From Nostoc sp. B(2019) (GTDB taxonomy: Bacteria > Cyanobacteriota > Cyanobacteriia > Cyanobacteriales > Nostocaceae), in contig NZ_WVID01000003.1 in NCBI RefSeq assembly GCF_010091925.1, forward strand, positions 186,001 to 250,000: 64,000 nucleotides of DNA, read 5' to 3'. Made by a program: the position numbers and the translations under genes. Below the pieces are notes generated by a model. The model saw only the letters and a program-made list of their open reading frames with translations, was not told where the DNA came from and searched no databases. Positions 2,747 through 15,619 of this stretch are shown piece after piece (the first letter of the stretch is position 1; each line of letters starts with the position of its first letter).

Positions 2747-3406
2747 TCACTCATCACTACTTGCTTCACTGCGGTAAGCTATCACAGCATAGAATGGATC
2801 CCCACCAGCTGCACCCAACCACTGTAAAACAGCTGGCGCTGTTGACTTATGGACAATGACTTCTGGGGTAGTGAATCCTGGGACTGAGGCGAAGTAACGC
2901 TTGACTAATTCAACGCGATATGTTTCAGAAGCATCCCGCCAGGCTTGAATCGCTTTTTGAAAAAACATCCGGTTAGAAAAGCTGATAATTGCAACGCCAC
3001 CAGGTTTGAGAATCCGATGAATTTCGGAAAATACTGCTTCTGGATATTGCACATACTGCACTGAAACGCAGTTGAGAACGGCGTCAAAATCCTGATCTGG
3101 CAAGGGTAACTGAGGATTTTCGTTGATATTTTGGACAAAGTAATGATTTAAACGGGGATTACGTGCCAGTTCTTCAGCATTTAGTCCGTGTCCCTCAACG
3201 TGAGCAAACTGCATCTCTGGTGGCAGATGAGACACCCAGCTGCTCATCATATCAAGTATGCGTGTGTTGGGTTGAAGGCGATCGCGATATAAATCCGTTA
3301 GCTGTTGAATAAATCCTTCATCGACATGAGTAACGAAGCGAGGATAATCATAAAACAGCTTGTCGTTTGTATCATCTAATTTTAGGCGTTGATTCGGTCT
3401 TAGCAT
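2747..3406 (-). CDS. SAM-dependent methyltransferase (class I, divergent)
   Basis: A Rossmann-fold methyltransferase pattern is visible: a motif-I-like strand ILDMMSSW, an acidic/loop position after AHVEGHG, the post-I block FDAVLNCVSVQYV and motif RILKPGGVAIISF. The usual GxGxG after motif I is replaced by MMSSWVSHLP, a variant that I believe recurs in cyanobacterial homologs. The frame stays open upstream to 3502, but the start MLRPNQRLKLDD at 3406 fits better because the extra 32 residues look non-conserved. Substrate unknown. Confidence 0.8.
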   Translation of the reverse strand: MLRPNQRLKLDDTNDKLFYDYPRFVTHVDEGFIQQLTDLYRDRLQPNTRILDMMSSWVSHLPPEMQFAHVEGHGLNAEELARNPRLNHYFVQNINENPQLPLPDQDFDAVLNCVSVQYVQYPEAVFSEIHRILKPGGVAIISFSNRMFFQKAIQAWRDASETYRVELVKRYFASVPGFTTPEVIVHKSTAPAVLQWLGAAGGDPFYAVIAYRSEASSDE

Positions 3407-3669
3407 TATAAATCTCTGTTTTGCACAACTTTTTTCCAAAATTGCTGGAATTTCAGGTATTCTTTTGAACAAGTTCTCTGTAACATATTTTAATAAAATC
3501 AAGACACATATAGCGATTCTCTGATCAATGAAATATCCGAACTCAACAGAATAAACAACCAGTAGCCAAAATATATAATTCTCCAGTCTCCTAAACGAAA
3601 GAGTATTGTAGACAACTGAGAACCGCTATCAGCGAGTCTACGTAACAGCATTCAATTCTGATTAATTCG

Positions 3670-5349
3670 ATGTTGTATAGACTACAGTTATTGCAGCCTA
3701 TGTGGCGGCAAATGCGCCTAGCAGGAGCATTACCATATATTAGTTTGTTACTTTGGATACTCCCTTTATTGCTATTCAGTTCTGGGGAGAATAGCCTTAT
3801 GGCACATGATGAAGGGCTGTATGCTTGGCGCGCACGCCAGATGTTTGATTCTGGCGATTGGATAGCTCCCTGGGGCAATGCCCATCATAAAACCCCTGGG
3901 CCCTATTGGTTAATTGCTGCTTCCTACCAGCTGTTTGGCATTAGCGAAGCCAGTGGACGAATTCCCACTATGATAGCTGGGATTTTTAGCCTATTACTTG
4001 TATATGAAATCGGCAAAATTTTACTGGGTAAAAAAGTGGCTTGGCTAGCTGGTGCGATTTTGAGTGTGGAATTTCTCTGGTTGCAATACTGTCGTTTAGG
4101 CACGCCTGATTTACCGATGATTCTATTGGTGCTTTTAGCTATTTGGTCTTTATTAAAAGCTGAATTGCATCCTAAATATTGTTATTTTTGGACTTTTATT
4201 GCTGGCTTAAGTTTAGGTTTAGGCTTCTTAGTCAGAAGCTTTATGATTTTGTTACCAATCATGGCTTTATTCCCTTATTTAATTTGGGAACATCGCCGTC
4301 ATCGCCATCTTGCTAACCCAATTTTGTATTTAGGTTTAGTGGTAGGTTTAATTCCTACCTTGGGTTGGCTATGGTTTAACTGGCTGCGCTACGGTAATTT
4401 GAGTTATGGGCATTTGCTTAAGTTTGTTGTGGATTTAGGTTCTGAAGACCGTAACCACAATGGAGCATTTTTCTATGTCTGGAATATTCCTTTAAAGTCA
4501 TTTCCTTGGTTTTTTTTAAGTCTTTTAGGCTTAGTTGTGGCGTTACGTCGTCCTCTGCCTCGCTATCAACTTATATTGGTGGGTTTTCCACTTGTACTGT
4601 TTGCGGAACTTAGTCTGTTCTCGACTCGTTTACCTCACTACAGTCTTTGTCTTTATCCCTTCATCGCGATGCTTGCGGCGGTGGGTTTAAATTGGTTGGG
4701 TAGGATTTATCAAATAGGACTTACATACCGAAAAATCTCCCCTCAATCCCTTCTTTTAAAAGGGAGAAAAAATTTATTAACTCCTTTTGCAAAGATAGCT
4801 GGGGATCTTCCCCGTAATCTCAGTTATGCCTGTGGTGTGTTAGGTATTGTACTTTTACTGGGAGGTACAGTCGCTTTAGCTAGCGCTAATGCTGATATCC
4901 GCAAGTACTCACCACTCGGCTTGATTGTGGGGTTAGCTTGGTTAATTATGCCTGTGGTGTGGATTGGTCGTTACCGTTTTGGTTACAAGTTTCTCACAGC
5001 TCGTTACTGGGTAGCTAGTTGGTTAATTCCCTGTTGGTTAGCTTTGGCTGTGGCTGGTAGCATGGGTTTGTTAGGTGACTATAACCCTGTTTATAGAACT
5101 TTTTTACAACAAAGAGCGATCGCCTCAATTATTCAAACTCATCCCATCTATTTTGTGCAAGTGGGTGGGAAAAACGCTGTACTGCTAAATTTCTACACTC
5201 CTATTCACGCCCAACGAGTAGACACCATTTCCCAAGTGCCTGCTTTTAGCTATGCTTGGATTTATACAAAAAAGCCCCCTGAATTATCTACATCTCACCG
5301 CGTTCTCGGTACAGTCAAAGACTACCAGTTGATTCAAGTCCTTCCTTAG
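3670..5349 (+). CDS. ArnT/PMT-type membrane glycosyltransferase (GT39/GT83-like)
   Basis: A 559-residue polytopic membrane protein with about a dozen hydrophobic segments. The first periplasmic loop has the hallmark of dolichyl/undecaprenyl-phosphate sugar transferases: MAHDEGLYAWRARQM, then GDWIAPWGN, HHKTPGPYW and a following SEASGRIPT segment. Such enzymes move a sugar from a polyprenyl-phosphate carrier onto lipid A, protein or other surface acceptors on the outer face of the inner membrane. Residues about 350-380 form an odd basic, low-complexity insert encoded by repeat-like DNA (4722-4800). The start is uncertain; ATG codons at 3703 and 3712 are alternatives. Confidence 0.88.
   Translation: MLYRLQLLQPMWRQMRLAGALPYISLLLWILPLLLFSSGENSLMAHDEGLYAWRARQMFDSGDWIAPWGNAHHKTPGPYWLIAASYQLFGISEASGRIPTMIAGIFSLLLVYEIGKILLGKKVAWLAGAILSVEFLWLQYCRLGTPDLPMILLVLLAIWSLLKAELHPKYCYFWTFIAGLSLGLGFLVRSFMILLPIMALFPYLIWEHRRHRHLANPILYLGLVVGLIPTLGWLWFNWLRYGNLSYGHLLKFVVDLGSEDRNHNGAFFYVWNIPLKSFPWFFLSLLGLVVALRRPLPRYQLILVGFPLVLFAELSLFSTRLPHYSLCLYPFIAMLAAVGLNWLGRIYQIGLTYRKISPQSLLLKGRKNLLTPFAKIAGDLPRNLSYACGVLGIVLLLGGTVALASANADIRKYSPLGLIVGLAWLIMPVVWIGRYRFGYKFLTARYWVASWLIPCWLALAVAGSMGLLGDYNPVYRTFLQQRAIASIIQTHPIYFVQVGGKNAVLLNFYTPIHAQRVDTISQVPAFSYAWIYTKKPPELSTSHRVLGTVKDYQLIQVLP
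4722..4800. repeat. Repeat-like DNA inserted in frame inside the glycosyltransferase gene
   Basis: The text 'ctcccctcaatcccttcttttaaaaggga' looks like the intergenic 'tcccctcaaccct...aagggag' repeat of Nostocales and contains a small inverted repeat (CCCTT/AAGGG, 4748-4764). It encodes the basic stretch between two membrane helices of the glycosyltransferase and keeps the frame open. The identity as a mobile short repeat is inferred from memory of similar intergenic text. Confidence 0.4.
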
Positions 5350-5466
5350 TAATTTACCAAGAGGGATAAGCTTTCAATGTGAACTACTGAAGATATTGAA
5401 AGCAGTTATTGCTAAAACCAATTAGTCTAGTTATGATAATATTACGTACACTAAGCAATTTTCTGA

Positions 5467-5934
5467 ATGGTTTCTACATCCGATCATTCCCAAACTGTGG
5501 AGTCGTGGCAGCAAATTCTTGCACCAGACAGTATGGGCTACAGAATCAAATTGTTATCACAATTGCTCAGTCGCAAGTTTACAGAGAAGCTAGAACCGTT
5601 TGGACTGACGCCATTTCACTGGTTGATATTGTGCTGTTTATGGCAAGAAGATGGTTTACCGACTTCCAGCATTGGGGACAGACTTAAACAAGTAGGAGGG
5701 ACTTTAACTGGTGTACTAGACCGCATGGAAGAACGCAGCTTGGTACGTCGAGAACGTGACCCTCACGATCGCCGCATTTGGCGGATATGGCTAACGGATG
5801 CAGGTAAGGAACTAGAAAAGGTTTTACCCCCAATTTCGGCAGAATTGCGTGATCAAGCGATGCAGGGTATTTCCTCGGCTGATCGTGAACTGTTTTCGCA
5901 ACTCTTGAATCAGGCGATCGCTAACCTCTCATAA
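5467..5934 (+). CDS. MarR-family transcriptional regulator
   Basis: 155 residues, the usual MarR length, with a winged helix: LTPFHWLILCCLWQ (helix before the HTH), SIGDRLKQVGGTLTGVLDRMEERSLV (HTH recognition region) and the wing RERDPHDRRIWRIWLTDAG, whose D-x-R pattern is diagnostic. MarR proteins bind as dimers to palindromes and are released by small phenolic or oxidant ligands. It lies about 120 bases after the glycosyltransferase on the same strand; whether it controls that gene is unknown. Confidence 0.92.
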   Translation: MVSTSDHSQTVESWQQILAPDSMGYRIKLLSQLLSRKFTEKLEPFGLTPFHWLILCCLWQEDGLPTSSIGDRLKQVGGTLTGVLDRMEERSLVRRERDPHDRRIWRIWLTDAGKELEKVLPPISAELRDQAMQGISSADRELFSQLLNQAIANLS

Positions 5935-5944
5935 TTTTTGTTGT

Positions 5945-5974
5945 GCGATGCCTAGGTTGGGCTACGCCTACGCA
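5945..5974. repeat. 30-base dispersed repeat, copy 1
   Basis: This stretch (beginning GCGATGCCT and ending CCTACGCA) is found again at 17148-17177 with one mismatch. Such GC-richer 'gggctacgcctacgc' modules are typical short dispersed repeats in Nostocales intergenic DNA. It lies between the MarR gene and the convergent Uma2-type gene. Confidence 0.8.
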
Positions 5975-6015
5975 GAAATATATGAAGATGTAATATTGAT
6001 AGATGATAATATTTT

Positions 6016-6786
6016 CTAATCCAACATTTCTGGGTCAATACCTAAAGTATTGAGTTGTTCAGCAGAAAGCGATCGCAATTTCTCTACAATTCTCTCCCGC
6101 TTTTGTCGCTCAACTTCAGCCCGTTCTTCACCTGTGAATAATAAATTTCCTTGTGCATCCCACCAGCGCAACCAAGGTAACTCTGCATTCTGATATAATC
6201 CTTGCCAAATGCCCAACTCTACCCCTAAAGGAGCAATGGGATAATGTCCTCGTTCATTGGGTTTCATCAGTTGATAAGCGTTATCGATTAAGTGATATAC
6301 TTCTATCTGCGCTTTTGCTACTTCATAAATTCCATAATAAGGGACGCGGATAGCCTGCTCATAAACCCAGAACTTACCAACATTCCCACCTTCCCCTTGA
6401 GATGGCGGCGTTTGATCTCGTTCTTCTGAACCGTCTCCAGAAACAAATTCCAACACAATCAAGGGTGCAACATACTCCTTCCAAAGCACGTAAGAACGCC
6501 GCATTTTACCATCGAGAGTTGGCGGTACATTGGGTACATAAAACCAATCTGGTGCTTCAGCACCTTTCTCAGGAGGATCTGTCAATCGCCAGTAAATCCC
6601 AGAATCTTGTCCAATACAATATTGACCGTCAGGATGGCGTTGTTCTAAAACAGGTTTAATCGAATCTGTAATTAAGATGCTTTGCGGATGCTCCTGAAGA
6701 TTTTTCACGAACGTACCATCTGAGTCTGGTAACTGGGTGTGGTCAGGTAAAGTTAATGCCGATAAAGAAGTCATAGGCACAACCAA
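6016..6786 (-). CDS. Uma2 family (DUF820) putative endonuclease
   Basis: 256 residues. The core matches the Uma2/DUF820 PD-(D/E)XK-like fold: EAPDWFYVP, a central LIVLEFVSGDGSEER strand and KFWVYEQAIRVPYYGIY, ending in a charged helix AEVERQKRERIVEKLRS. This is the cyanobacterial version that replaces the usual IEVLSPST with LEFVSGDG. The family is hugely expanded in cyanobacteria and its biological role is poorly known. Met5 (MTSLSAL) is an equally possible start. Confidence 0.85.
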   Translation of the reverse strand: MVVPMTSLSALTLPDHTQLPDSDGTFVKNLQEHPQSILITDSIKPVLEQRHPDGQYCIGQDSGIYWRLTDPPEKGAEAPDWFYVPNVPPTLDGKMRRSYVLWKEYVAPLIVLEFVSGDGSEERDQTPPSQGEGGNVGKFWVYEQAIRVPYYGIYEVAKAQIEVYHLIDNAYQLMKPNERGHYPIAPLGVELGIWQGLYQNAELPWLRWWDAQGNLLFTGEERAEVERQKRERIVEKLRSLSAEQLNTLGIDPEMLD

Positions 6787-6924
6787 GATTATATTTGTAT
6801 TTTATTTATTATTCTAATAAATCTAACAAGCTTTCTTGTGCTAGAGGACTTGATACTTAGAACTTTTGCACTTATTTCGTGTAAGTATATAGCGACAGTT
6901 TGGATTCATTTCACCAATTGAAAA

Positions 6925-7620
6925 TTAATAGATGGCAAGAGAAGATTTAATCATATTGAGTAATGGTTGTATAAATATATCCACTATTGGCTTTGCAAAA
7001 GCAAGTAGAACTCCAATAGTAATCGTCAAGACTAAAGTCTGTTTAATAGAATAACTCTCTACTTTTTTCTCCAGATTATCCAAACGTTTTACCAAAGAAG
7101 GAAGAGAAGCAACTGAATCAGGACTATTCATTAAATCAGTGGGGATTAAATCATAACCTATCTTCTGTCGTGGCTTTTCATCATCTTTATCTAAGTCTGC
7201 ATACCATATAGAAAAAACTCTCTCACCTCTTCCTATATGAAGGTGAAGAGGCCCAGCATTATAAACAGCAAAAATTAGTTTTCCCCTATATCCAGGATCG
7301 ACATGAAGACCTGAAACATTGATCAACCCTTTAGATTTAAACTTAAATTTCATTGAAATAAATGCAAGTGCATTGTTAGGAACTTTGATGCTTTCAGAAG
7401 TTATCAGAAATGCAAACTGTCCTGGAGGGATAGTAACAGTTTGTTTATCGCTAAGAATAATTTTTTTCCGTTCTTTCAGAGGTGTATCAGGAAGGGCTGA
7501 AATATAAACTTCTTCCCCTAAACACAATTCGTATGATGCAGACTGAATTTGAGCCTCATTAAATGGTTCAATTAAACTGGGAAGACAAGAACTCAAAGTT
7601 TGTGATGACCAGAAACTCAT
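6925..7620 (-). CDS. dCTP deaminase/dUTPase-fold protein with C-terminal membrane anchor
   Basis: Residues 1-160 follow the Dcd/dUTPase trimer fold: SYELCLGEEV (30-38), IPPGQFAFLITSESI, GLHVDPGYRGKL (104-115) and the YNAGPLHLHIGRGERVFSIW segment. Compared with E. coli Dcd, the positions of catalytic Ser111/Arg115 (RSSLAR) read KFKFKS and the catalytic Glu138 is Ala118, so deamination is doubtful. After residue 170 comes a short coiled coil (LVKRLDNLEKKVES) and one membrane helix (about 194-216). It is the last gene of a four-gene minus-strand cassette and begins 21 bases after the MazG gene. Confidence 0.8.
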   Translation of the reverse strand: MSFWSSQTLSSCLPSLIEPFNEAQIQSASYELCLGEEVYISALPDTPLKERKKIILSDKQTVTIPPGQFAFLITSESIKVPNNALAFISMKFKFKSKGLINVSGLHVDPGYRGKLIFAVYNAGPLHLHIGRGERVFSIWYADLDKDDEKPRQKIGYDLIPTDLMNSPDSVASLPSLVKRLDNLEKKVESYSIKQTLVLTITIGVLLAFAKPIVDIFIQPLLNMIKSSLAIY

Positions 7621-7641
7621 TTTTTTCCCTATCAGATATCG

Positions 7642-8574
7642 TTAAATCAATGTTTTATTTCCACAGAGGCTAAACGTAGTATTAGACTCTTCCAAATAGG
7701 TTATTAAGCGTGCATCAAGATCAACGACTACCCTTCCTCCCCGATTTTTCTCTACCTGTCGCCAGACATCATAGCCCATTAGAATCGCCTTCTCCCAATC
7801 ACCCAGCGAACATTGAGAAACTTCTAAATGGGATGTCATATTTTTGATAGTCTTCAATAGTTGGTAATCTAATGTTGAAACGCCTTTTAAGAAACCGTGA
7901 TCTTTGGCATAGCTAAATACGAGTGCTGATATACCTTCCTCGATAGCTACTGCACGGCCACCGTCTTCAACTTCATCAATACTAGAGTTACTTTTGCGCT
8001 TACGTTTAAGCATACTACGAGTAACAACTGACCAACCTAAAACTGCGGCGTAAGAGAAATGGAAAACATCATGAAAGCGGTAGCCATCGCTTGTATAGGA
8101 ATTATCGGTGAGGTCATTTCCAATCTGTTTTTTGTTGATAAATGCCTTCATCTTGACTGAATTATCTTTGCTTACCTCCGTAATTTCTACTTCAAACTTC
8201 CGTGGTAAACTTTCATGTTCAGGGAAGTCATTATCAAATATGTAGCTTATAGCTTTATCATCTATTGTATCTGAATCTCTCCATCCCCAGCGATCACGGC
8301 ACTTTCTCAGATTCTCTTCCGCAATTTCTTCCAAATTAAGGTTAAATTTGCTTGCCAAATTGGAAATATACCAAAGCATATCTCCCAATTCTTCCGCGAT
8401 GCCTTCTTTAAATAATTTGTGTGCATCACCGTCGCGTAAATGTTTTTTATACTCAGTCATCAATGAGCCAACTTCACCAACTAAACCTAGTAGCGGTATG
8501 ATTAGTTCAGTACCTTCTACAGCAGGAATCTGGTCTGTGTTCAGTGCTTGTGTTTGATACTCAAAAAAATTCAT
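7642..8574 (-). CDS. MazG-like NTP pyrophosphohydrolase with extra C-terminal domain
   Basis: Residues 1-110 form an all-alpha MazG-type NTP pyrophosphatase: GLVGEVGSL, then EELGDMLWYISNLA with the metal-binding E-E-x-x-D pattern. Residues about 150-315 form a second conserved-looking helical domain (FHDVFHFSYAAVLGWS, EDGGRAVAIEEGISALVF), which I recall as a MazG C-terminal domain of nucleotide-modification systems. MazG proteins hydrolyse (d)NTPs to (d)NMP plus pyrophosphate. ATG at 8574 (MNFFEYQ) is preferred over the upstream ATG at 8589. Middle gene of the 6.9-10.6 kb cassette. Confidence 0.85.
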   Translation of the reverse strand: MNFFEYQTQALNTDQIPAVEGTELIIPLLGLVGEVGSLMTEYKKHLRDGDAHKLFKEGIAEELGDMLWYISNLASKFNLNLEEIAEENLRKCRDRWGWRDSDTIDDKAISYIFDNDFPEHESLPRKFEVEITEVSKDNSVKMKAFINKKQIGNDLTDNSYTSDGYRFHDVFHFSYAAVLGWSVVTRSMLKRKRKSNSSIDEVEDGGRAVAIEEGISALVFSYAKDHGFLKGVSTLDYQLLKTIKNMTSHLEVSQCSLGDWEKAILMGYDVWRQVEKNRGGRVVVDLDARLITYLEESNTTFSLCGNKTLI

Positions 8575-8678
8575 AATGAAACTGATCAAATTTTAAAGTT
8601 TTTGATTATAGGGATTATCATTGAGAGGATATATAAATTTGATAATACTTAAAAAATATCACCATTAAAGTCTCAAAA

Positions 8679-9209
8679 TCAGCTATATTTATAGGGAAAA
8701 ATAATTGGTTCTATATTATTTTTAAGACCTCTCGGATGGTGTGGGTCTTTATCCTTTGTCAGCTTTAGGCAGTGAAGAGGTTGTTGACCAGAAATTAGAC
8801 TTAGCACTTCTTCATTACGGTTCTTAATTCTGGGATACTTACCCGTACCCCATGCCAAAATAATTAATTCAGCGCGTTTTGTTGCTTCTTGAATATAGCA
8901 GTTATTTTTTTCCCCCACAGGATCATCTACTTGGGGTTGGGAAAGTTCAGGAGGTTTTGTAGCAATATAAGCGAATAGATTAACCACTTCAAGAGAACCA
9001 TATTTATTCCAAAACTTGGCAAAGTTAATACATCTAGTGAGGGTGGAATCACCTTTTTTCTCGTCAGCCTTGCTTGGGTTAAGCATTACAAAAGTAACTT
9101 GCGGCAAAGTTGTATCCCATCTACACCATAGTGAGTAGCGATACTTTCTCCTAATATCGTCGTCGAACTTGACATCTCTTTCCATGTCTATATATTTTTT
9201 TATTTTCAT
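8679..9209 (-). CDS. DUF1643 domain protein
   Basis: 176 residues with the DUF1643 pattern: YRYSLWCRWD, VTFVMLNPSKADE, STLTRCINFAKFW, VVNLFAYIATKPPEL, LIILAWGTG and the tail HPRGLKNN. The family has no assigned reaction; it is scattered among bacteria and phages and often lies in accessory regions, which fits this spot. It could also start at Met8 (MERDVKFDDD). It is 90-200 bases from its neighbours on the same strand, so it may belong to the same cassette as the MazG gene. Confidence 0.85.
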   Translation of the reverse strand: MKIKKYIDMERDVKFDDDIRRKYRYSLWCRWDTTLPQVTFVMLNPSKADEKKGDSTLTRCINFAKFWNKYGSLEVVNLFAYIATKPPELSQPQVDDPVGEKNNCYIQEATKRAELIILAWGTGKYPRIKNRNEEVLSLISGQQPLHCLKLTKDKDPHHPRGLKNNIEPIIFPYKYS

Positions 9210-9412
9210 GTGTTTTACACTGAATTGCTGTTGATTTATACTAAATAAAATAAATCACTGTTAGCTTTTACAAGTCCCGGAAACGAATTCATCATAATTT
9301 TTAGCCTATACTATCTTTTGGGCATTTTTTACGAGTGATAATTTTGATACTGCGTGAAACGCCTGACTTTAAGTTTTATAATGTTTTGAGAAAAGGAGTG
9401 CGAAATCCGGGA

Positions 9413-10600
9413 TCAAAACAGACACAACTGTTGAGATTTTTCGGTATCTGCATCTTGCAAAATTGTTGATTTTTTCCTCGGAGTTTCTTGCCCATATTGT
9501 TTACGTGGTTTTGATATATTATTCGGTATTTCAGATGTTGTTTTTCCCAGATAATCTAACTCCAAAGATAATTGCTGACAATTAATATTATTTAATAGTT
9601 GCAAATTAGGAATCTCTAATGTTGGTAATTTCTGTGCTAAAGTTTCTTGAACTTTATCGTTAATTTGCCATTTAGGTGGATAAAAGTAATCAATTGCTTG
9701 AGGCGTTGAAGTAAATTTGGATTTTATCTTTTTGCGATTACTTTTCAATTCTGGAAATGCTGCTCGGCAGTATTTATCAGTTTCACAAAAAAGGTTTTGA
9801 CAGTCTATTGCCTGTAGCGGACGACCCCAGAGTGATTGAAAATTTAACCCTAACCGTTGAAACTCTCTCTCTTGGTTTTCAGTCATCCAATGAATAATAT
9901 CAGTGTATGTTTTACCATCTGTATCAATAAAACACTTGCTGATACCACGTTCAGCTCCTGGGCCTGCTATAGTAAAACTGTTTTCGTCAAAGTTAATAAT
10001 TTCGCTATAGTTGATATCTGTGGCTAATTGGTAAGCCATAAACTTGCCTAGCAATGGATATTCTTGAATAATATGAAAAACGGCTTCAAAATTTTTGGCT
10101 TGGACTATGCGATTAACTACTTTATCTTGAACAACCATCTTATCAATTAGTGCCAAATGATTCTGGTGTTTTTTATCATAACCAAACTCTTTGCTGGCAC
10201 AAGACATATACGCACTTGTATAAATAACATATCCACAATTCATAGCCTCTTGTAATATGTTTGAATATGTATTTGAATCGAAATTAGATAGTGTAATATA
10301 GTCTCCTATTTTATTTTCTAAGTATTCCCATGTTTCTATTTTATTAAAAATTTTAAATAATAGAATCCGTAAAATTACTTCTTCTTCATTCTTGCTCCTA
10401 TTTTCATCGTAAATTACGTTTTTGAGCAGATATTGTGAAACGCGATCGCTTGCTCGGTATGCATTACAAAATTTATAAGTATTAATAATAGAGTCGCTTG
10501 TCCAGGGGGGTGGTGCATTGTTAATTTTGTTGAAAAATACTTCCTGGCGCATAGCAGCAAATCGCCAATACGTGTCAAAAATTTCTTGTCTTACTTGCAT
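9413..10600 (-). CDS. Putative alpha-glutamyl/putrescinyl-thymine pyrophosphorylase-like protein
   Basis: 395 residues. The N-terminus has a helical pattern that I recognise from the hydroxymethyl-dU kinase / alpha-glutamyl-putrescinyl-thymine pyrophosphorylase group described in phage base-hypermodification systems: a start like YWRFAAMRQEVFF, then PPPWTSDSIINTYKF (30-44) and NAYRASDRVSQYL (46-58). Such enzymes act on 5-hydroxymethyl-pyrimidine in DNA. The C-terminal 100 residues are low-complexity and Lys/Gln-rich. No phage gene neighbours are present. Recognition rests on motif memory, so the exact clade and activity are unproven. It heads the four-gene minus-strand cassette. Confidence 0.6.
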   Translation of the reverse strand: MQVRQEIFDTYWRFAAMRQEVFFNKINNAPPPWTSDSIINTYKFCNAYRASDRVSQYLLKNVIYDENRSKNEEEVILRILLFKIFNKIETWEYLENKIGDYITLSNFDSNTYSNILQEAMNCGYVIYTSAYMSCASKEFGYDKKHQNHLALIDKMVVQDKVVNRIVQAKNFEAVFHIIQEYPLLGKFMAYQLATDINYSEIINFDENSFTIAGPGAERGISKCFIDTDGKTYTDIIHWMTENQEREFQRLGLNFQSLWGRPLQAIDCQNLFCETDKYCRAAFPELKSNRKKIKSKFTSTPQAIDYFYPPKWQINDKVQETLAQKLPTLEIPNLQLLNNINCQQLSLELDYLGKTTSEIPNNISKPRKQYGQETPRKKSTILQDADTEKSQQLCLF

Positions 10601-10830
10601 ACACCGTTCTCCTGGCTTGTCGTCATCAGTTTAAAACCTGCCTAATTATGCGGTAATCATCCAGATTTCTTGTACGTTCTCAAAACCCCTGTTGTGATAT
10701 ATCTTGAGAATAAATCAAGTAAAAGGGATTCCAGCAGAAATAATTTTATTCACATAATACAAGTTAGGCGATTTTGTCCATGCGATACAGATTCTACACA
10801 GTTATCTGATACTTGTTTAAACTACGTGCT

Positions 10831-10969
10831 TTACCGCAACTCATCCAAGACCCTCTGATCTTCTAAAGTAGAAGTATTAGCACATACCTCTTGCTATGAT
10901 GTCAGATTAAGTAGCAAATACCGCATCACTATCTTACCCGATCGCAACTTTAGGCAAAGCTTCTGTAAA
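10831..10969 (-). pseudogene. Decayed remnant of an acetyl-CoA synthetase 3' end
   Basis: The sequence aligns along its whole length to the 3' end of the intact acs gene (12063-12205). Read on the minus strand it gives FTEALPK, then after a one-base frame change RSGKIVMRYLLLNL, an in-frame TAG, and STLEDQRVLDELR followed by a stop, against [20 protein letters not shown] and [13 protein letters not shown] in Acs. The frameshift, the internal stop and the missing remainder show it is dead. It lies just past the end of the TPR gene, same orientation as acs. Confidence 0.85.
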
Positions 10970-10977
10970 TATGAATT

Positions 10978-11667
10978 TTATGAAAGACTAGGATCATCTG
11001 AAGTTTTTATTTCGCGTAAAATACGTTCAATTTGCTTAACTTTTTCATTTCGATTCTGTGCTTTGAAGATATTTAAAGCTTTTTCTAGAGAAGATAGCGC
11101 CTCATCTCGTTTATTTGTTTGCCACAGTACCAGTGCTACATTAGTTAGTGCTTCGCCATAATTGGGATTAATTTCTAAAGCTTTCTGATATTCAGTAATG
11201 GCTTCTGTCCAGAGACTTTGGCTAGCGTAAACCATACCGATCGCATTATAAGCTAGAGCATATTGTGACCTAATCCGAATGGCTTCTCGGTAAGCGCTAA
11301 CTGCTGCTTCTGGTTGATTTTGACGAAAGAGCGTATTTCCTAGTTGAAAGTGTCCAAATGCATCTTCTGGGAATTTTTTAATAAATTTACGTAAATTTTC
11401 TTCTGCACCTTTGAAGTCACCTTGATTGTACAGAGCATTAGCTTGTTGGATCAGCTGCGATCGCTCTGCTGGTTGTTCCGCACCGGAAAACTGGGCTAAT
11501 TTTTGTGGTTGCTTCTGTGCAGACTGTTGAGGTGTGTGCAGAGAAATTCCTGTAACTGCTAACACTGATGGTGATATGCCAATTGCAGTTATGATACTCA
11601 GCATCATGCAGCTAAGAGGTTGAATAAATACTGATTTTAGTTGGCTATTCAGCTTCATTGTCCTCAA
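10978..11667 (-). CDS. TPR-repeat protein with signal peptide
   Basis: 229 residues. A hydrophobic N-terminal segment (about residues 10-37, ending SPSVLA) should export the protein. Three to four tetratricopeptide repeats follow from residue 70: ALYNQGDFKGAEENL, FGHFQLGNTLFRQNQPEAAV, LAYNAIGMVYASQSLWTEAI and GEALTNVALVLWQTNKRDEAL. TPRs mediate protein-protein contacts; the partner is unknown. Met4 is an alternative start. It is flanked downstream by the acs remnant. Confidence 0.88.
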   Translation of the reverse strand: MRTMKLNSQLKSVFIQPLSCMMLSIITAIGISPSVLAVTGISLHTPQQSAQKQPQKLAQFSGAEQPAERSQLIQQANALYNQGDFKGAEENLRKFIKKFPEDAFGHFQLGNTLFRQNQPEAAVSAYREAIRIRSQYALAYNAIGMVYASQSLWTEAITEYQKALEINPNYGEALTNVALVLWQTNKRDEALSSLEKALNIFKAQNRNEKVKQIERILREIKTSDDPSLS

Positions 11668-11759
11668 TGCCTTAATAATGTCCTGATTATCATCATAATT
11701 AGTAAATGCGTAATTAAAACTCTTGCATTGTGTTCAACATATTCTGCCAACGTTAAAAT

Positions 11760-11993
11760 ATGAGTTCTCTTCCAGAAATCGAAATAGCGATTGCAAAACT
11801 GCCAAAAACTCAGGCACGAAAGCTTTTAGAATGGCTCCAAGTATATCTAGATGACGCTTGGGACAGACAAATTGAAGCAGATATAAAATTAGGTCGCCTC
11901 AACAGTTTGCTACAACGTGCTGAGGCAGATATTGCTGCCAATCGCACCAAACCAATCGATGGATTGGGTCACATGATGAATATGAGAAGCTAA
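11760..11993 (+). CDS. Small antitoxin-like protein without a toxin neighbour
   Basis: 77 residues; the helical text KLPKTQARKLLEWLQVYLDDAWDRQIEADI and RAEADIAANRTKP matches a family of small cyanobacterial antitoxin-like proteins usually followed by a RelE/ParE-type toxin. Homologs I recall end in KPLDEVL; here the last dozen residues (IDGLGHMMNMRS) depart from that, suggesting a frameshifted or replaced tail. No toxin gene follows: the next gene is convergent acs. It is therefore an orphan or a remnant. Confidence 0.55.
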   Translation: MSSLPEIEIAIAKLPKTQARKLLEWLQVYLDDAWDRQIEADIKLGRLNSLLQRAEADIAANRTKPIDGLGHMMNMRS

Positions 11994-12016
11994 TTGATTG
12001 AAATAGGGGACGTTAG

Positions 12017-12042
12017 TAGGGGCGCAAGGGCTTACGCCCCTA
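12017..12042. terminator. Hairpin between convergent genes
   Basis: TAGGGGCG (12017-12024) and CGCCCCTA (12035-12042) form an 8-bp stem with a 10-base loop, just after the 77-residue gene and next to the acs stop. It could end transcription from either side, although no long T run follows. The 'gtaggggcgcaaggg' text is also a common dispersed cyanobacterial repeat. Confidence 0.5.
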
Positions 12043-12053
12043 TGATGAATTGT

Positions 12054-14027
12054 CTAATTGCCTTCCCGCAACTTATCCAACACGCTTCTATCTTCTAATG
12101 TGGAAGTATCACCAGATACTTCTTGCCCAGATGCTAAATTCCGTAATAAGCGCCGCATAATTTTACCCGATCGCGTTTTGGGCAAAGCATCCGTAAAGCG
12201 AATTTCTCCAGGACGAGCGATCGCACCAATTTCTTTTACAACGTGTTGCTTAAGTTCTTTACTCAGTTCCTCACTCGCCTGATAAGTCCCCTCTAGAGTC
12301 ACAAAAGCAACTACTTCTTCACCTTTGAGTTCGTCTGGCTTACCTACTACTGCCGCTTCTGCAACTGCTGGATGAGAAACCAAGGCCGATTCTACTTCCA
12401 TTGTACCAAGACGATGCCCCGATACGTTAAGTACATCATCTACGCGACCCATTACCCAGAAATAGCCGTCTTCATCTTGTCTTGCACCATCACCAGCAAA
12501 GTAAATATAGTTGCCATCTTTAGGGGGAATGTGTTCCCAGTAGGTGCGGCGGAAGCGTTCTGGATCGCCGTAGACTGTCCGCATCATCCCTGGCCAAGGA
12601 TGACGCACCGCCAGATAACCACCTTCGCTCTTGGGTACGGTGTTGCCTTCCAAATCTACGACATCTGCAAGAATTCCTGGGAAAGGAAGAGTTGCAGAAC
12701 CAGGTTTAGTAGGAATTGCTCCTGGTAGAGGCGTAATCATAATGCCACCAGTTTCAGTTTGCCACCAAGTATCAACAATTGGGCAACGTTCACCACCAAT
12801 TACTTTGTGATACCACATCCAAGCTTCTGGGTTAATTGGTTCGCCGACGGTTCCCAGCAAACGCAACGAAGACAAATTTCGCGCATTGGGATGTTGTTCA
12901 CCCATCTTAATAAATGCCCGAATTGCCGTAGGTGCAGTATAAAAAATATTCACGCCGTATTTTTCAATCACATCCCAGAAACAGCCTGGATTGGAAGCAC
13001 GGGGCGCACCTTCATACATCAAAGTTGTTGCACCGTTAGAAAGAGGCCCATAAATAATATAGCTGTGTCCAGTAATCCAACCTACGTCTGCGGTACACCA
13101 GTATACATCTGTGTCTTGCAGGTCAAAGATCCATTTGGTGGTGATATGGGTATATAAGTTATAACCAGCAGTTGTATGCACCACACCTTTCGGTTTACCT
13201 GTACTACCGGAAGTGTAGAGGACAAATAGCATATCTTCGCTGTCCATTGGTTCAGCTGGACAATCAGCTGATACACCTTTTTGTAAATCATGCCACCAAT
13301 GATCGCGTCCACCTAATTGCATATAAGTTTCCTGTCCGGTGCGCTTAACAACCAAGACGTTTTGCACACTGGGAACAGCACCATCAGCTAAGGCTTTATC
13401 TACTTGTTCTTTAAGAGGAACGATCGCATCTTTGCGCCAACCACCATCAGCAGTGATCACTAGCTTTGCTTGAGCATCAATTAAGCGATCGCGCAAAGCT
13501 TCAGCACTGAAACCACCAAATACCACACTATGAGGTGCGCCGATTCTGGCACAGGCTAACATAGCGATCGCAGCTTCGGGAATCATTGGCATATAAATAC
13601 CAATGCGATCGCCTTTTTGCACCCCCAGTTGCTTGAGCACATTGGCAAACTGGCAAACTTCCCGATGCAGTTGGGCATAAGTAAGGGTACGCGAATCTCC
13701 TGGTTCCCCTTCCCAAATTAGTGCAGCTTTATTCTTACGCCAGGTTGTGAGGTGTCGATCAAGGCAGTTGTAAGAGATATTGATTTTACCACCAACGAAC
13801 CACTTAGCAAAAGGCGGTTGCCAGTCGAGAACCGTGTCCCATTTTTGGAACCAGTGCAACTCTTTTTCCGCCAATTCTGCCCAGAATTGCTGAGGATCAG
13901 CCTTAGCTTGCTCGTAGAGACGCTGATAGTCTGCCAGACTTTTGATATGGGCGTTCTGAGAAAATTCGCTAGGAGGATGGAATAGGCGCTTCTCTTGTAG
14001 GATTGATTCTATAGTTGGTTGAGACAT
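12054..14027 (-). CDS. acs: Acetyl-CoA synthetase (AMP-forming)
   Basis: 657 residues, full family length. It activates acetate with ATP and CoA to acetyl-CoA through acetyl-adenylate. Motifs in order: the P-loop-like [12 protein letters not shown] near 275, the adenylation segment WWQTETGG near 420, [27 protein letters not shown] (hinge region) and the C-terminal [13 protein letters not shown] containing the catalytic, acetylatable lysine. Start [10 protein letters not shown]. Monocistronic by position. A partial decayed copy of its 3' end lies 1.2 kb away at 10831-10969. Confidence 0.97.
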
Positions 14028-14195
14028 AGTTATGGCTGCAAACGGTATTGTTACTGAACTATATTCTTAACGGAGATTTGTGCGAAAGTGTTTAGAGTTT
14101 CGTTAAGCTGCGCGAATGTAAAAATGTGTTTTGCAATGTCTCTGCTGAAAATATTGCAAGATGATAAGTAGTCTTGACAAATAACGCTTGAAACT

Positions 14196-14840
14196 ATGCC
14201 ACTTACTGTCGAAGCCAGCAGCCTATCTCTCAATGATGTTCATCGTTTTCTTAAACTGCAAGAGCTTTCAAATGGCTCCTTTGGAGATTTTTTAAATTTA
14301 GAACCGCTGACAGACATTGAACAGCAGGATGTATTGCGAATTAGAAACGACTTCCGCCGTTATCTAACGTTGGGTAAAATCTCTGAGGGTTTAGTGAAAT
14401 TTTTAACAATAGCGCCACTAATGCGGTTAGCTGGATTTTATGACGTGCCGATTCGGTTGACAATGGAAGATAGCATTGCGATCGCTGTCGAAGATGAAGA
14501 TAAAAAAATTACCGGACGGATGGACATTTTAGCAATCAGCAGTCCGCAAACTAATACTGCACCACCTTTTTGGGTTCTAGTGATTGAAACGAAAAACAGT
14601 GCGATTAATGTGATTGAGGGTTTACCTCAGTTACTTACTTATGCTTTTAAGAGTTTAGAACAGCAACCATCAGTTTGGGGTTTAGTCACTAACGGACAGC
14701 TTTATCAATTTGTTTATCTAAGACGTGATCAGCAGCTAACTTATCAGGTAATGACATTATTGAACTTAAATGAATCCGAGGGAGCAATAAAGTTATTACA
14801 AGTTCTCAAAGCCATCTGCCAGTTACTAAATTTTCAGTAA
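14196..14840 (+). CDS. Type I restriction R-subunit N-terminal-like (HsdR_N) putative nuclease
   Basis: 214 residues. After a helical N-terminus comes the PD-(D/E)XK-like core GRMDILAISS followed by FWVLVIETKNS, matching the D...ExK order of the HsdR N-terminal nuclease fold, then a GLPQLLTYAF helix and WGLVTNGQLYQFV. It is a stand-alone domain: no helicase, specificity or methylase subunits are nearby. Such solo proteins are widespread in cyanobacteria with unknown role. It starts 168 bases from acs in divergent orientation. Confidence 0.75.
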   Translation: MPLTVEASSLSLNDVHRFLKLQELSNGSFGDFLNLEPLTDIEQQDVLRIRNDFRRYLTLGKISEGLVKFLTIAPLMRLAGFYDVPIRLTMEDSIAIAVEDEDKKITGRMDILAISSPQTNTAPPFWVLVIETKNSAINVIEGLPQLLTYAFKSLEQQPSVWGLVTNGQLYQFVYLRRDQQLTYQVMTLLNLNESEGAIKLLQVLKAICQLLNFQ

Positions 14841-14869
14841 AATGAACGTAAACTTAGGGGCGATCGCTT

Positions 14870-15619
14870 ATGTCTGAACCTGCTATCCTAGAATTCGTCT
14901 CTTCTCATATTGCAGAGGACGAAGTTGTTTTTCCTCCAGGCGATTTACTCAGCGACGAACCACCCTTGGAAAGTGACCTACACCGTGACCAAATCGATCT
15001 ACTAATTCGCATACTCAAATTGTGGTGGCGAGAGCGGCAAGATTTCTATGCTTCCGGCAATTTGACAGTTTACTATAGTCCAAACCAAAAAAAATCAGAG
15101 GATTTTCGAGGCCCAGACTTTTTTGTCGTGTTGGGAACCCAGAAAAAAGACCGTAAGAGTTGGGTAGTATGGCAAGAAAACGGCAAGTATCCAAATCTGA
15201 TTATAGAAATTTTGTCGAATACAACAGCAGCAGTTGATAAAGGCTTAAAAAAACAAATTTACCAGGATACCTTTCGCACACCCGATTATTTCTGGTTTGA
15301 TCCTGTAACAATGGAGTTTCAGGGATTTCATTTAGTAGATGGGAAGTATCAAGAAATTCAACCTACTACTGAAGGTAAATTATGGAGTCAGCAGTTAGAA
15401 CTTTACTTAGGAGTTTATGAAGGTAAACTAAGATTTTTTACTACTGAAAATCAATTGATACTCTCATCTGAAGAACTAGCTCAACAAGAAAGTTTACGCG
15501 CCCAACAGGCAGAAGAACGAGCACAACAGGCAGAAGAACGCGCCCAACAAGCAGAGCAAGAAATAGCTAGATTGCGTGAGGTTTTAAGAGCACAGGGCAT
15601 CGACCAAGAGAATATTTGA
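14870..15619 (+). CDS. Uma2 family (DUF820) putative endonuclease with coiled-coil tail
   Basis: 249 residues. The Uma2 core is clear: GPDFFVVLG (PD-type aspartate), WQENGKYPNLIIEILSNTT and PDYFWFDP. The last 45 residues are an in-frame repeat of AQQAEER units (about 211-232) ending ARLREVLRAQG, a typical coiled-coil tail of this family. It begins 29 bases after the HsdR_N-like gene and may be cotranscribed. Confidence 0.88.
   Translation: MSEPAILEFVSSHIAEDEVVFPPGDLLSDEPPLESDLHRDQIDLLIRILKLWWRERQDFYASGNLTVYYSPNQKKSEDFRGPDFFVVLGTQKKDRKSWVVWQENGKYPNLIIEILSNTTAAVDKGLKKQIYQDTFRTPDYFWFDPVTMEFQGFHLVDGKYQEIQPTTEGKLWSQQLELYLGVYEGKLRFFTTENQLILSSEELAQQESLRAQQAEERAQQAEERAQQAEQEIARLREVLRAQGIDQENI
15498..15560 (+). 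repeat. 21-base in-frame tandem repeat
   Basis: About three near-identical units of 'cgcgcccaacaggcagaagaa' encode AQQAEER repeats in the coiled-coil tail of the Uma2-type gene. Unit number is expected to vary between strains through slippage. Confidence 0.8.

Follow-up and report, generated by a model that had tools for sequence, protein, structure and literature searches.

A compact HMUDK_hel and MazG_C cassette in a Nostoc genome: a candidate mobile conflict module with a predicted membrane-anchored partner of dCTP-deaminase fold

The closest described relatives of the cassette reported here, four genes of nucleotide and base chemistry in a 64,000-nucleotide stretch of the genome of Nostoc sp. 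B(2019) (the window), are phage clusters for thymidine hypermodification and predicted bacterial defence systems. The phage clusters (ViI- and M6-like) are reportedly the subject of Iyer 2013 and Lee 2018/2021. They have the HMUDK_hel/aGPT-Pplase2 protein in common with the cassette, and a partner of the thymidylate synthase (TS) family in common with a fuller bacterial operon described below. They differ in their P-loop PF18748 kinase, and no phage genes were noticed around the cassette. The dUMP hydroxymethylase of the phage pathway, a TS-family enzyme, is not among the four genes either, although a TS-like gene lies at another locus of the same genome. In passages of PMC10458263 and PMC9476957, aGPT-Pplase2 stands among thymidine-modification genes. 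For bacteria, E. coli systems containing 5hmdU-kinase, TS, dNMP-kinase and NMAD domains are described as validated in a study of DefensePredictor (PMC13092281), and aGPT-Pplase, MazG, MazG-C and dUTPase are named there among domains whose role in defence is predicted and untested. With the cassette these systems share protein families, a bacterial host and a defence role predicted from sequence and context. The accessible text of that study gives no gene maps, no statement of which domains share one system and no mechanism study of the validated systems, and DUF1643, deaminase, acyl carrier, ImmA and TIR do not occur in the main text; the likeness to the cassette is thus one of domain names. 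We would class the cassette as a compact version of these already predicted nucleotide-based defence modules, one that includes a puzzling DCD-fold partner with a membrane anchor and a DUF1643 component.

The window's genome (7.43 Mb) has Nostoc as its nearest named kin. The cassette comprises four real genes, all co-directional on the minus strand, and Pfam confirms the family calls of the initial annotation, which had been made from the letters of the window. That annotation had placed the 395-residue protein in the thymine-pyrophosphorylase/HMUDK family, where PF18723 indeed puts it. The features are:

9413 to 10600, minus strand: gene 1, 395 residues, HMUDK_hel (PF18723; phage aGPT-Pplase2 family), Pfam E-value 2.3e-107
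9743 to 10585, minus strand: HMUDK_hel domain, residues 6-286 of gene 1 (Pfam, AlphaFold2 model, alignments)
8679 to 9209, minus strand: gene 2, 176 residues, DUF1643 (PF07799), Pfam 1.2e-43
7642 to 8589, minus strand: gene 3, 315 residues, MazG (7.1e-5) plus MazG_C (2.2e-84), Pfam
7690 to 8244, minus strand: MazG_C domain (PF18722), residues 116-300 of gene 3, Pfam 2.2e-84
6925 to 7620, minus strand: gene 4, 231 residues, dCTP deaminase/dUTPase fold without the deaminase glutamate, Pfam DCD 6.2e-18
6982 to 7038, minus strand: predicted membrane-spanning segment, residues 195-213 of gene 4, mean hydropathy 2.09

We interpret these genes as a mobile bacterial conflict module of the HMUDK_hel plus MazG-MazG_C kind in its compact form, most likely directed against phages (probability about 0.55); that the module is an anti-phage or anti-plasmid system we consider likely. 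Profile searches for HMUDK_hel, MazG_C, DUF1643 and a TS-like protein in 292 cyanobacterial genomes found HMUDK_hel sporadically, in 14 genomes. MazG_C was present in nine genomes with ten copies, all ten within 1.5 kb of an HMUDK_hel gene. A wider survey used the best 80 of 214 relatives and, being seeded with the gene 1 protein, is biased towards near kin. Together with 13 cyanobacterial loci, a second locus of the window's genome (L006) and the window itself it comprised 95 loci, of which 87 were kept after removal of seven with an identical HMUDK_hel core and of L086, where no HMUDK_hel open reading frame was called. Co-occurrence was counted within eight genes of HMUDK_hel on either strand, and the counts are lower bounds, as some loci stop at contig ends. 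MazG_C was near HMUDK_hel in 64 of the 87 loci, plus one fused gene; the other neighbours were TS-like (51), ImmA/IrrE (42), DCD (41), AcpS (39), XRE (36), DUF1643 (29), acyl carrier protein (ACP; 28) and TS (9). HMUDK_hel and MazG_C are hence a genuine pair. A 659-residue protein of a Gemmataceae member (L058, 7887-9863) fuses HMUDK_hel with MazG-MazG_C, which supports the two acting together.

An HMUDK_hel tree (86 rows after a length filter; bootstrap not fully settled) is split in two by a branch with support 100/99. The compact side (28 rows) consists mostly of cyanobacterial loci in which HMUDK_hel is accompanied by DUF1643 and MazG_C (24, of which 12 also have DCD). Its other rows are three cyanobacterial ones missing at least one of these genes and one from Clostridia, whose long branch is unsure. 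All 51 TS-like loci fall on the full side (58 rows), which spans Bacteroidota, Pseudomonadota, Planctomycetota, Cyanobacteriota and others; this larger form of many phyla adds several of ACP, AcpS, XRE, an ImmA/IrrE peptidase and a TS-like enzyme. The window's cassette belongs to the compact side and the second locus of its genome to the full side. The compact form was found in Nostocales and near relatives. In 28 of the 87 loci (24 compact, four full-type), all cyanobacterial, genes 1 to 3 stand no further than eight genes from one another, and 12 of these loci also have gene 4. Recurrence of the genes together, as looked for in unrelated genomes, was therefore seen across phyla for the HMUDK_hel and MazG_C pair, and for the whole foursome within cyanobacteria only. 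The TS-like profile was found in seven of the 292 genomes, each time beside HMUDK_hel, and was absent from the other seven HMUDK_hel genomes; the genomes without it include those of compact type, except the window's own, which has a TS-like gene at its other locus.

The cassette has no ACP, AcpS, XRE, ImmA/IrrE or TS-like gene, of which TS-like occurs in 51 of the 87 loci and the others in many. Moreover, some compact-clade loci lack DCD, and L047 also lacks DUF1643 and MazG_C. A decaying remnant of the full operon, its function lost, might look like this. We hold such decay to be very improbable: compact loci form a separate clade with a DUF1643 gene of their own, the window's genome retains both types, and the ratio of nonsynonymous to synonymous substitution rates (dN/dS) is well under 1 for three of the genes. 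Compared with four Nostocales relatives, it was 0.12-0.21 for gene 1, 0.14-0.20 for gene 3 and 0.34-0.49 for gene 4, and highest for the DUF1643 gene (0.41-0.82). Judged by these values, at least genes 1, 3 and 4 are constrained; they are under purifying selection.

The direction of the module was suggested by the neighbourhoods of relatives. On plasmid pP742404 of Gloeothece citriformis PCC 7424 (L201, 4978-9524), a patatin phospholipase gene (6.3e-27) is followed by HMUDK_hel (2e-115) and MazG_C (1.1e-80), and the string continues with a ThsB-type TIR gene (1.3e-21) and Nmad2 (1.5e-81), an AAA plus TIR protein being encoded nearby. This string looks like an immune operon, and the position of the pair between patatin and TIR plus Nmad2 makes a defence role likely. 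A Mesorhizobium sp. 131-2-1 plasmid (L200, 449-11778) has the order Tmk-like, TIR, Nmad2, MazG_C, uracil-DNA-glycosylase (UDG). The Mesorhizobium cluster as a whole contains several TIR proteins, a patatin, two Nmad2-like proteins, a Tmk-like kinase, MazG_C and a UDG-family protein. In Parabacteroides we observed TIR, Nmad2, HMUDK_hel and radical SAM in a row, and in Rhodococcus TIR and Nmad2 beside MazG_C and HMUDK_hel, this TIR being read by eye without a profile run. In total, a TIR plus Nmad2 pair was near four of the 87 surveyed loci. Conversely, of the 12 plasmids bearing Nmad2 that were listed (of 16), at least six encode HMUDK_hel or a relative of gene 3 no more than about 3 kb away, judged by coordinates. 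Two further plasmid sets, one of Streptomyces and one of Sinorhizobium, have as neighbours type I-E CRISPR genes at about 6 kb and an ABC-three-component system at about 3.5 kb, respectively. The gene strings of some core-pair relatives thus share the ThsB-type TIR and patatin with Thoeris and CBASS, from which the cassette itself differs. A stretch of Amphibacillus with Tmk-HMUDK_hel, TS, TIR and Nmad2 had no match in E. coli genomes in a DNA-level search. These neighbourhoods support the anti-phage direction of the initial annotation, as the family assignments support its view of a nucleotide and base-chemistry module. The expected vicinity of defence genes was encountered in some relatives (TIR, patatin, CRISPR, ABC-three-component) but neither in the cassette nor as an island in its flanks.

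Defence-gene density was compared as well, a weak test that gives no measure of enrichment. As a control, 40 of the 41 window genes were scanned and matched eight PADLOC families, mads_3 and mads_8 with three members each and six others with one each; models for type I methyltransferase and AbiEii had no match among these 40. The neighbours of full-type loci (122 of 130 random draws from 269) included type I methyltransferase models in three to four members, AbiEii in three and phage integrase in five.

Mobility of the cassette is indicated by an empty site. In a same-genus genome (L194) the flanks 2770-6778 and 10926-14902 are separated by 163 bp, compared to 4.1 kb in the window, which delimits the inserted segment. 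Two features describe it:

6779 to 10925, strand not assigned: extent of the mobile cassette, missing at the syntenic site of the same genus (comparison with L194)
10827 to 10960, minus strand: fragment like the 3' end of the 657-residue gene at 12054-14027 (73% over 134 bp)

In L195 and L197 both flanks are present with other sequence in between, and in L196 the right flank alone matched; tblastn of the cassette proteins against these four fetched stretches (L194-L197) gave no match. The G+C content of the cassette (0.351 vs 0.419 for the whole window) is below that of all 531 equal-sized non-overlapping windows (100-base steps). The fragment, a duplicate-like copy of the 3' end of the neighbouring gene, sits just upstream of gene 1. 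By eye we take the 657-residue gene product to be an acetyl-CoA synthetase, no profile having been run. In L024 and L026 the cassette directly follows the counterpart of this gene, so it may plausibly have come from a donor of that kind by recombination. Transposon ends were sought in the cassette region, where weak short repeats and no clear target duplication were seen. Relatives of gene 3 also occur on plasmids: 34 records have one, 80% or more of the query is covered in 29, and 18 are called conjugative.

These data bear on whether the cassette might be a housekeeping device. MazG and dUTPase folds are classic house-cleaning enzymes, and together with the purifying selection on genes 1, 3 and 4 this would fit a sanitation of the nucleotide pool, in which 5-hydroxymethyl-dU or oxidised pyrimidine nucleotides that arise in the photosynthetic cell are removed and no conflict is involved. 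We judge this explanation quite unlikely in view of the sporadic distribution of HMUDK_hel, the empty site and plasmid carriage, the TIR, patatin and CRISPR genes near some relatives, and the hydrophobic anchor on a gene 4 protein that lacks the deaminase glutamate.

A phage origin of the cassette was considered and found little support. A tblastn search of gene 3 against 50,697 phage records matched 20, none covering 80% of the query, and among the 12 matches listed coverage was at most 33%, confined to the MazG half; the TS-like protein of L079 found no phage record in the same kind of search. Thus, no record covered the MazG_C half or the TS-like protein, though PHROG families match all four cassette proteins. 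One of these, phrog_229, matches gene 3 at 1.4e-42 over residues 5-296, so that remote phage relatives of both halves, MazG_C included, do exist. The idea of a reduced version of a phage system consequently holds insofar as the locus has neither hydroxymethylase nor kinase, while a reduction from a phage cassette is unsupported by tblastn and, given the remote PHROG matches, still conceivable.

The gene 1 protein matches PF18723 with 359 bits (cut-off 25) over profile positions 2-280 of 281. The alignments used here and below are selections (A1, the window plus 52 of 64 listed rows; A2, 40 rows of a 52-member cluster, namely the first 40 within length limits; A3, 27 of 28 rows; A4, 18 of 30 rows). 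Across 53 bacterial and four phage HMUDK_hel rows, 18 residues are identical, and all 18 are present in gene 1. Its AlphaFold2 model (mean pLDDT 83; poor after residue 330, with residues 331-395 of low confidence) shows a nearly all-helical domain with a helix-hairpin-helix-like motif at about residues 182-191, GPG at 213-215 and C272/E273/K276/R279. In a Foldseek search of the model, HhH-GPD DNA glycosylases made up 18 of the first 35 rows with a best E-value of 0.33. By hhalign the family aligned to HhH-GPD at the helix-hairpin-helix motif with an E-value of 0.045 and a probability of 1.2% without phage rows, or 0.016 and 2.8% with them. The modelled resemblance to DNA glycosylases is suggestive only and serves as a lead.

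Gene 1 has no P-loop kinase domain. A role of HMUDK_hel as a complete kinase is not supported for this protein; the cassette has neither a fused nor a separate kinase. In phage phiMAM1, HMUDK_hel and PF18748 (8.9e-118) are encoded by separate genes. Among bacterial relatives, a Tmk-like kinase is fused to HMUDK_hel in seven of the 87 loci by BLAST match (eight proteins exceed 500 residues), and a separate Tmk-like kinase lies within eight genes in six. PF18748, the P-loop '5-hmdU DNA kinase' family, was not found in any of six cyanobacterial genomes searched, the window's genome included. In phage PaMx11, HMUDK_hel stands beside TS and a P-loop protein weakly matching PF18748. This arrangement, the company of aGPT-Pplase2 in the thymidine-modification literature cited above and the intact family-wide residues of gene 1 would be in line with self-marking, whereby HMUDK_hel builds a modified thymine into the DNA of the host or element to evade or guide restriction, and MazG and DCD clear unwanted nucleotides. 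The missing hydroxymethylase at the locus, the absence of the TS-like profile from half of the 14 HMUDK_hel genomes and the lack of PF18748 in the six genomes make such DNA hypermodification an unlikely function. The initial annotation had remarked that the usual partners are missing; this is so at the locus, and for the PF18748 kinase in the genome, but not in the cell, where the second locus provides TS-like and ACP-like genes and an HMUDK_hel/MazG_C pair of its own.

In gene 3, MazG_C scores 282 bits (cut-off 29.7). We judged its MazG domain by the acidic metal-binding motif of active MazG, corresponding to positions 39, 42, 67 and 70. Glu39, Glu67 and Asp70 are kept in all 55 rows covering them (65 aligned), and position 42 is Ser in 31, Gln in 12, Glu in 11 and Thr in one.

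Gene 4 shares its fold and a nearly invariant HVDPG motif with dCTP deaminases and other DCD-DUT enzymes, but deviates at the active site. At the place of Glu138, the catalytic glutamate of E. coli dCTP deaminase, the protein has Ala, and none of 41 family rows keeps the glutamate (Ala 21, Ser 18, Met 1, Thr 1; 42 aligned). The gene 4 row also aligns to Ala at this place of structure 1xs4, the E138A mutant. The phosphate-contacting RSSxAR stretch of the E. coli enzyme is altered. Of 37 relatives with a length of 195 residues or more, 36 have a C-terminal hydrophobic segment after the DCD domain; in gene 4 it begins at residue 195, in agreement with the membrane anchor proposed before. The name dCTP deaminase hence holds for the fold of gene 4 and not for its active site, contrary to the enzyme activity first assumed. 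From these alignments, gene 4 and its kin look like a distinct membrane-anchored family without deaminase activity, for which a dUTPase-like activity is conceivable. The annotation 'dCTP deaminase' can accordingly mask a membrane-anchored protein without the deaminase glutamate, which accompanies HMUDK_hel loci in several phyla.

Another contig of the window's genome has a further HMUDK_hel gene directly beside a further MazG_C gene. This locus (L006, C20:16000-35900; about 6400-10950) encodes an ACP-like protein, XRE, an ImmA/IrrE peptidase, a TS-like protein, HMUDK_hel and MazG-MazG_C, and brings to light a recurrent ACP, XRE, ImmA/IrrE, TS-like, HMUDK_hel, MazG_C operon. A literature search, which did not cover Iyer 2013 or Burroughs 2015, found no publication on the gene combination containing ACP. 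In 27 aligned ACP-like proteins of about 98 residues, Pro38 and Ser47 are the sole invariant columns. Their profile, compared with the PDB, placed a designed repeat protein first (0.0015) and the first ACP at 0.0026, most of the 60 rows listed being ACPs. Three members tested had no match to Pfam ACP; a Streptomyces member matches PP-binding at 1.4e-5, and an Allocoleopsis plasmid copy carries the annotation acyl carrier protein. The AcpS assignment is clear (1.4e-17). The TS-like profile matches CMP 5-hydroxymethylase at 0.0012. Against a thymidylate synthase alignment it reaches 1.1e-5, the catalytic Cys falling in register (two unrelated alignments gave 0.2 and 0.36), and this Cys is invariant in 40 of 40 rows. 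Two TS-like members had no match to Pfam TS, and the Streptomyces member reached 0.0036, under the cut-off. On account of these matches and the invariant Cys, the product of the full type is probably a pyrimidine nucleotide substituted at position 5, perhaps made with a carrier-bound group.

DUF1643 is common in cyanobacteria (78 of 292 genomes), so its tie to the cassette is local; the window's genome has it once, in the cassette. In three comparisons its dN was 0.24-0.32 at a dS of 0.38-0.51, and against L036 it was 0.037 (dS 0.088); dN of gene 1 was 0.04-0.08 at comparable dS in the same three. Except against L036, DUF1643 changes fast, as diversifying pressure or an exchange through recombination would make it do. 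The motifs 'LNPS' and 'HPRHP', spotted by eye, prompted a comparison with uracil-DNA-glycosylases. The AlphaFold2 model (18 rows) has a pLDDT of 79, no UDG was among the 50 Foldseek rows listed of 1124, and the hhalign E-value against UDG weakened from 0.016 with 18 rows to 0.1 with 39; such a relationship is at most a possibility.

Several observations weigh against a defence module of this kind. TIR plus Nmad2 is missing near 83 of the 87 loci, a relative of the Gloeothece patatin is near none of them, and TIR, Nmad2, patatin and cyclase are all absent from the cassette's four genes. PADLOC 2.0 models, at E-values up to 1, matched none of the four proteins, and no defence island was seen in the flanks, where the 40 window genes scanned gave scattered PADLOC matches. 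DCD is present in only 12 of the 24 compact loci and occurs together with TIR and Nmad2 in L065 and L105, hence it does not simply stand in for them. L047 of Nostoc linckia (8001-9200) has a compact-clade HMUDK_hel with ample downstream sequence in which no DUF1643, MazG_C or DCD was called; HMUDK_hel can thus stand alone, and the core pair is not obligatory. At the level of single proteins, the likeness of gene 1 to HhH glycosylases is below significance in both Foldseek and hhalign, 44 of 55 rows have Ser, Gln or Thr at MazG position 42, and the fast change of DUF1643 comes from three of four pairwise comparisons.

In such a conflict module, the proteins may divide the labour as follows. HMUDK_hel, possibly glycosylase-like and with its family-wide residues intact, and MazG_C would act on 5-hydroxymethyl- or hypermodified thymine nucleotides, either brought by an infecting phage or made as a compound by the pair itself. 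DUF1643 would supply specificity, and the membrane-anchored, deaminase-dead protein of DCD fold would bind the resulting nucleotide and act at the membrane; other versions may have a patatin phospholipase or a TIR protein in its position. We offer this scheme tentatively and think it rather doubtful in its details. A bolder and unlikely generalisation is that HMUDK_hel and MazG_C are the central pair of an immune system, so far undescribed, that works through a nucleotide signal and has exchangeable modules. A 5-substituted (hydroxymethyl-type) pyrimidine nucleotide would there be turned into a signal that an effector reads. The nucleotide would come from the phage in the compact form and from the TS-like enzyme and a carrier-bound group in the full form; effectors would be TIR plus Nmad2, patatin, or the window's deaminase-dead, membrane-anchored protein of dUTPase fold, perforating or signalling at the membrane. 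If true, this would be an immune system with carrier-protein-dependent nucleotide chemistry. The locus links phage base-hypermodification chemistry to probable bacterial immunity, and the compact four-gene form is small enough to be cloned and tested whole.

A scan of the cassette region for promoters and terminators remained near chance (24 promoter-like sites vs 17.0 expected, standard deviation 3.9; two terminators vs 2.5). The TS-like gene of the cyanobacterial genome G002 (C1:4851536-4855161) is matched in two parts with about 2.8 kb between them, a pattern that an insertion into the gene would leave. On plasmid pRlX4 of Rhizobium ruizarguesonis (L116, 1-8987), a C1-family peptidase gene lies between the ImmA/IrrE gene and two short open reading frames, both of which match part of the TS-like protein, with caspase-family and pYEATS genes alongside. 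Finally, a Uma2-family gene (PF05685) at 6016-6786 of the window adjoins the cassette and lies outside the mobile segment.

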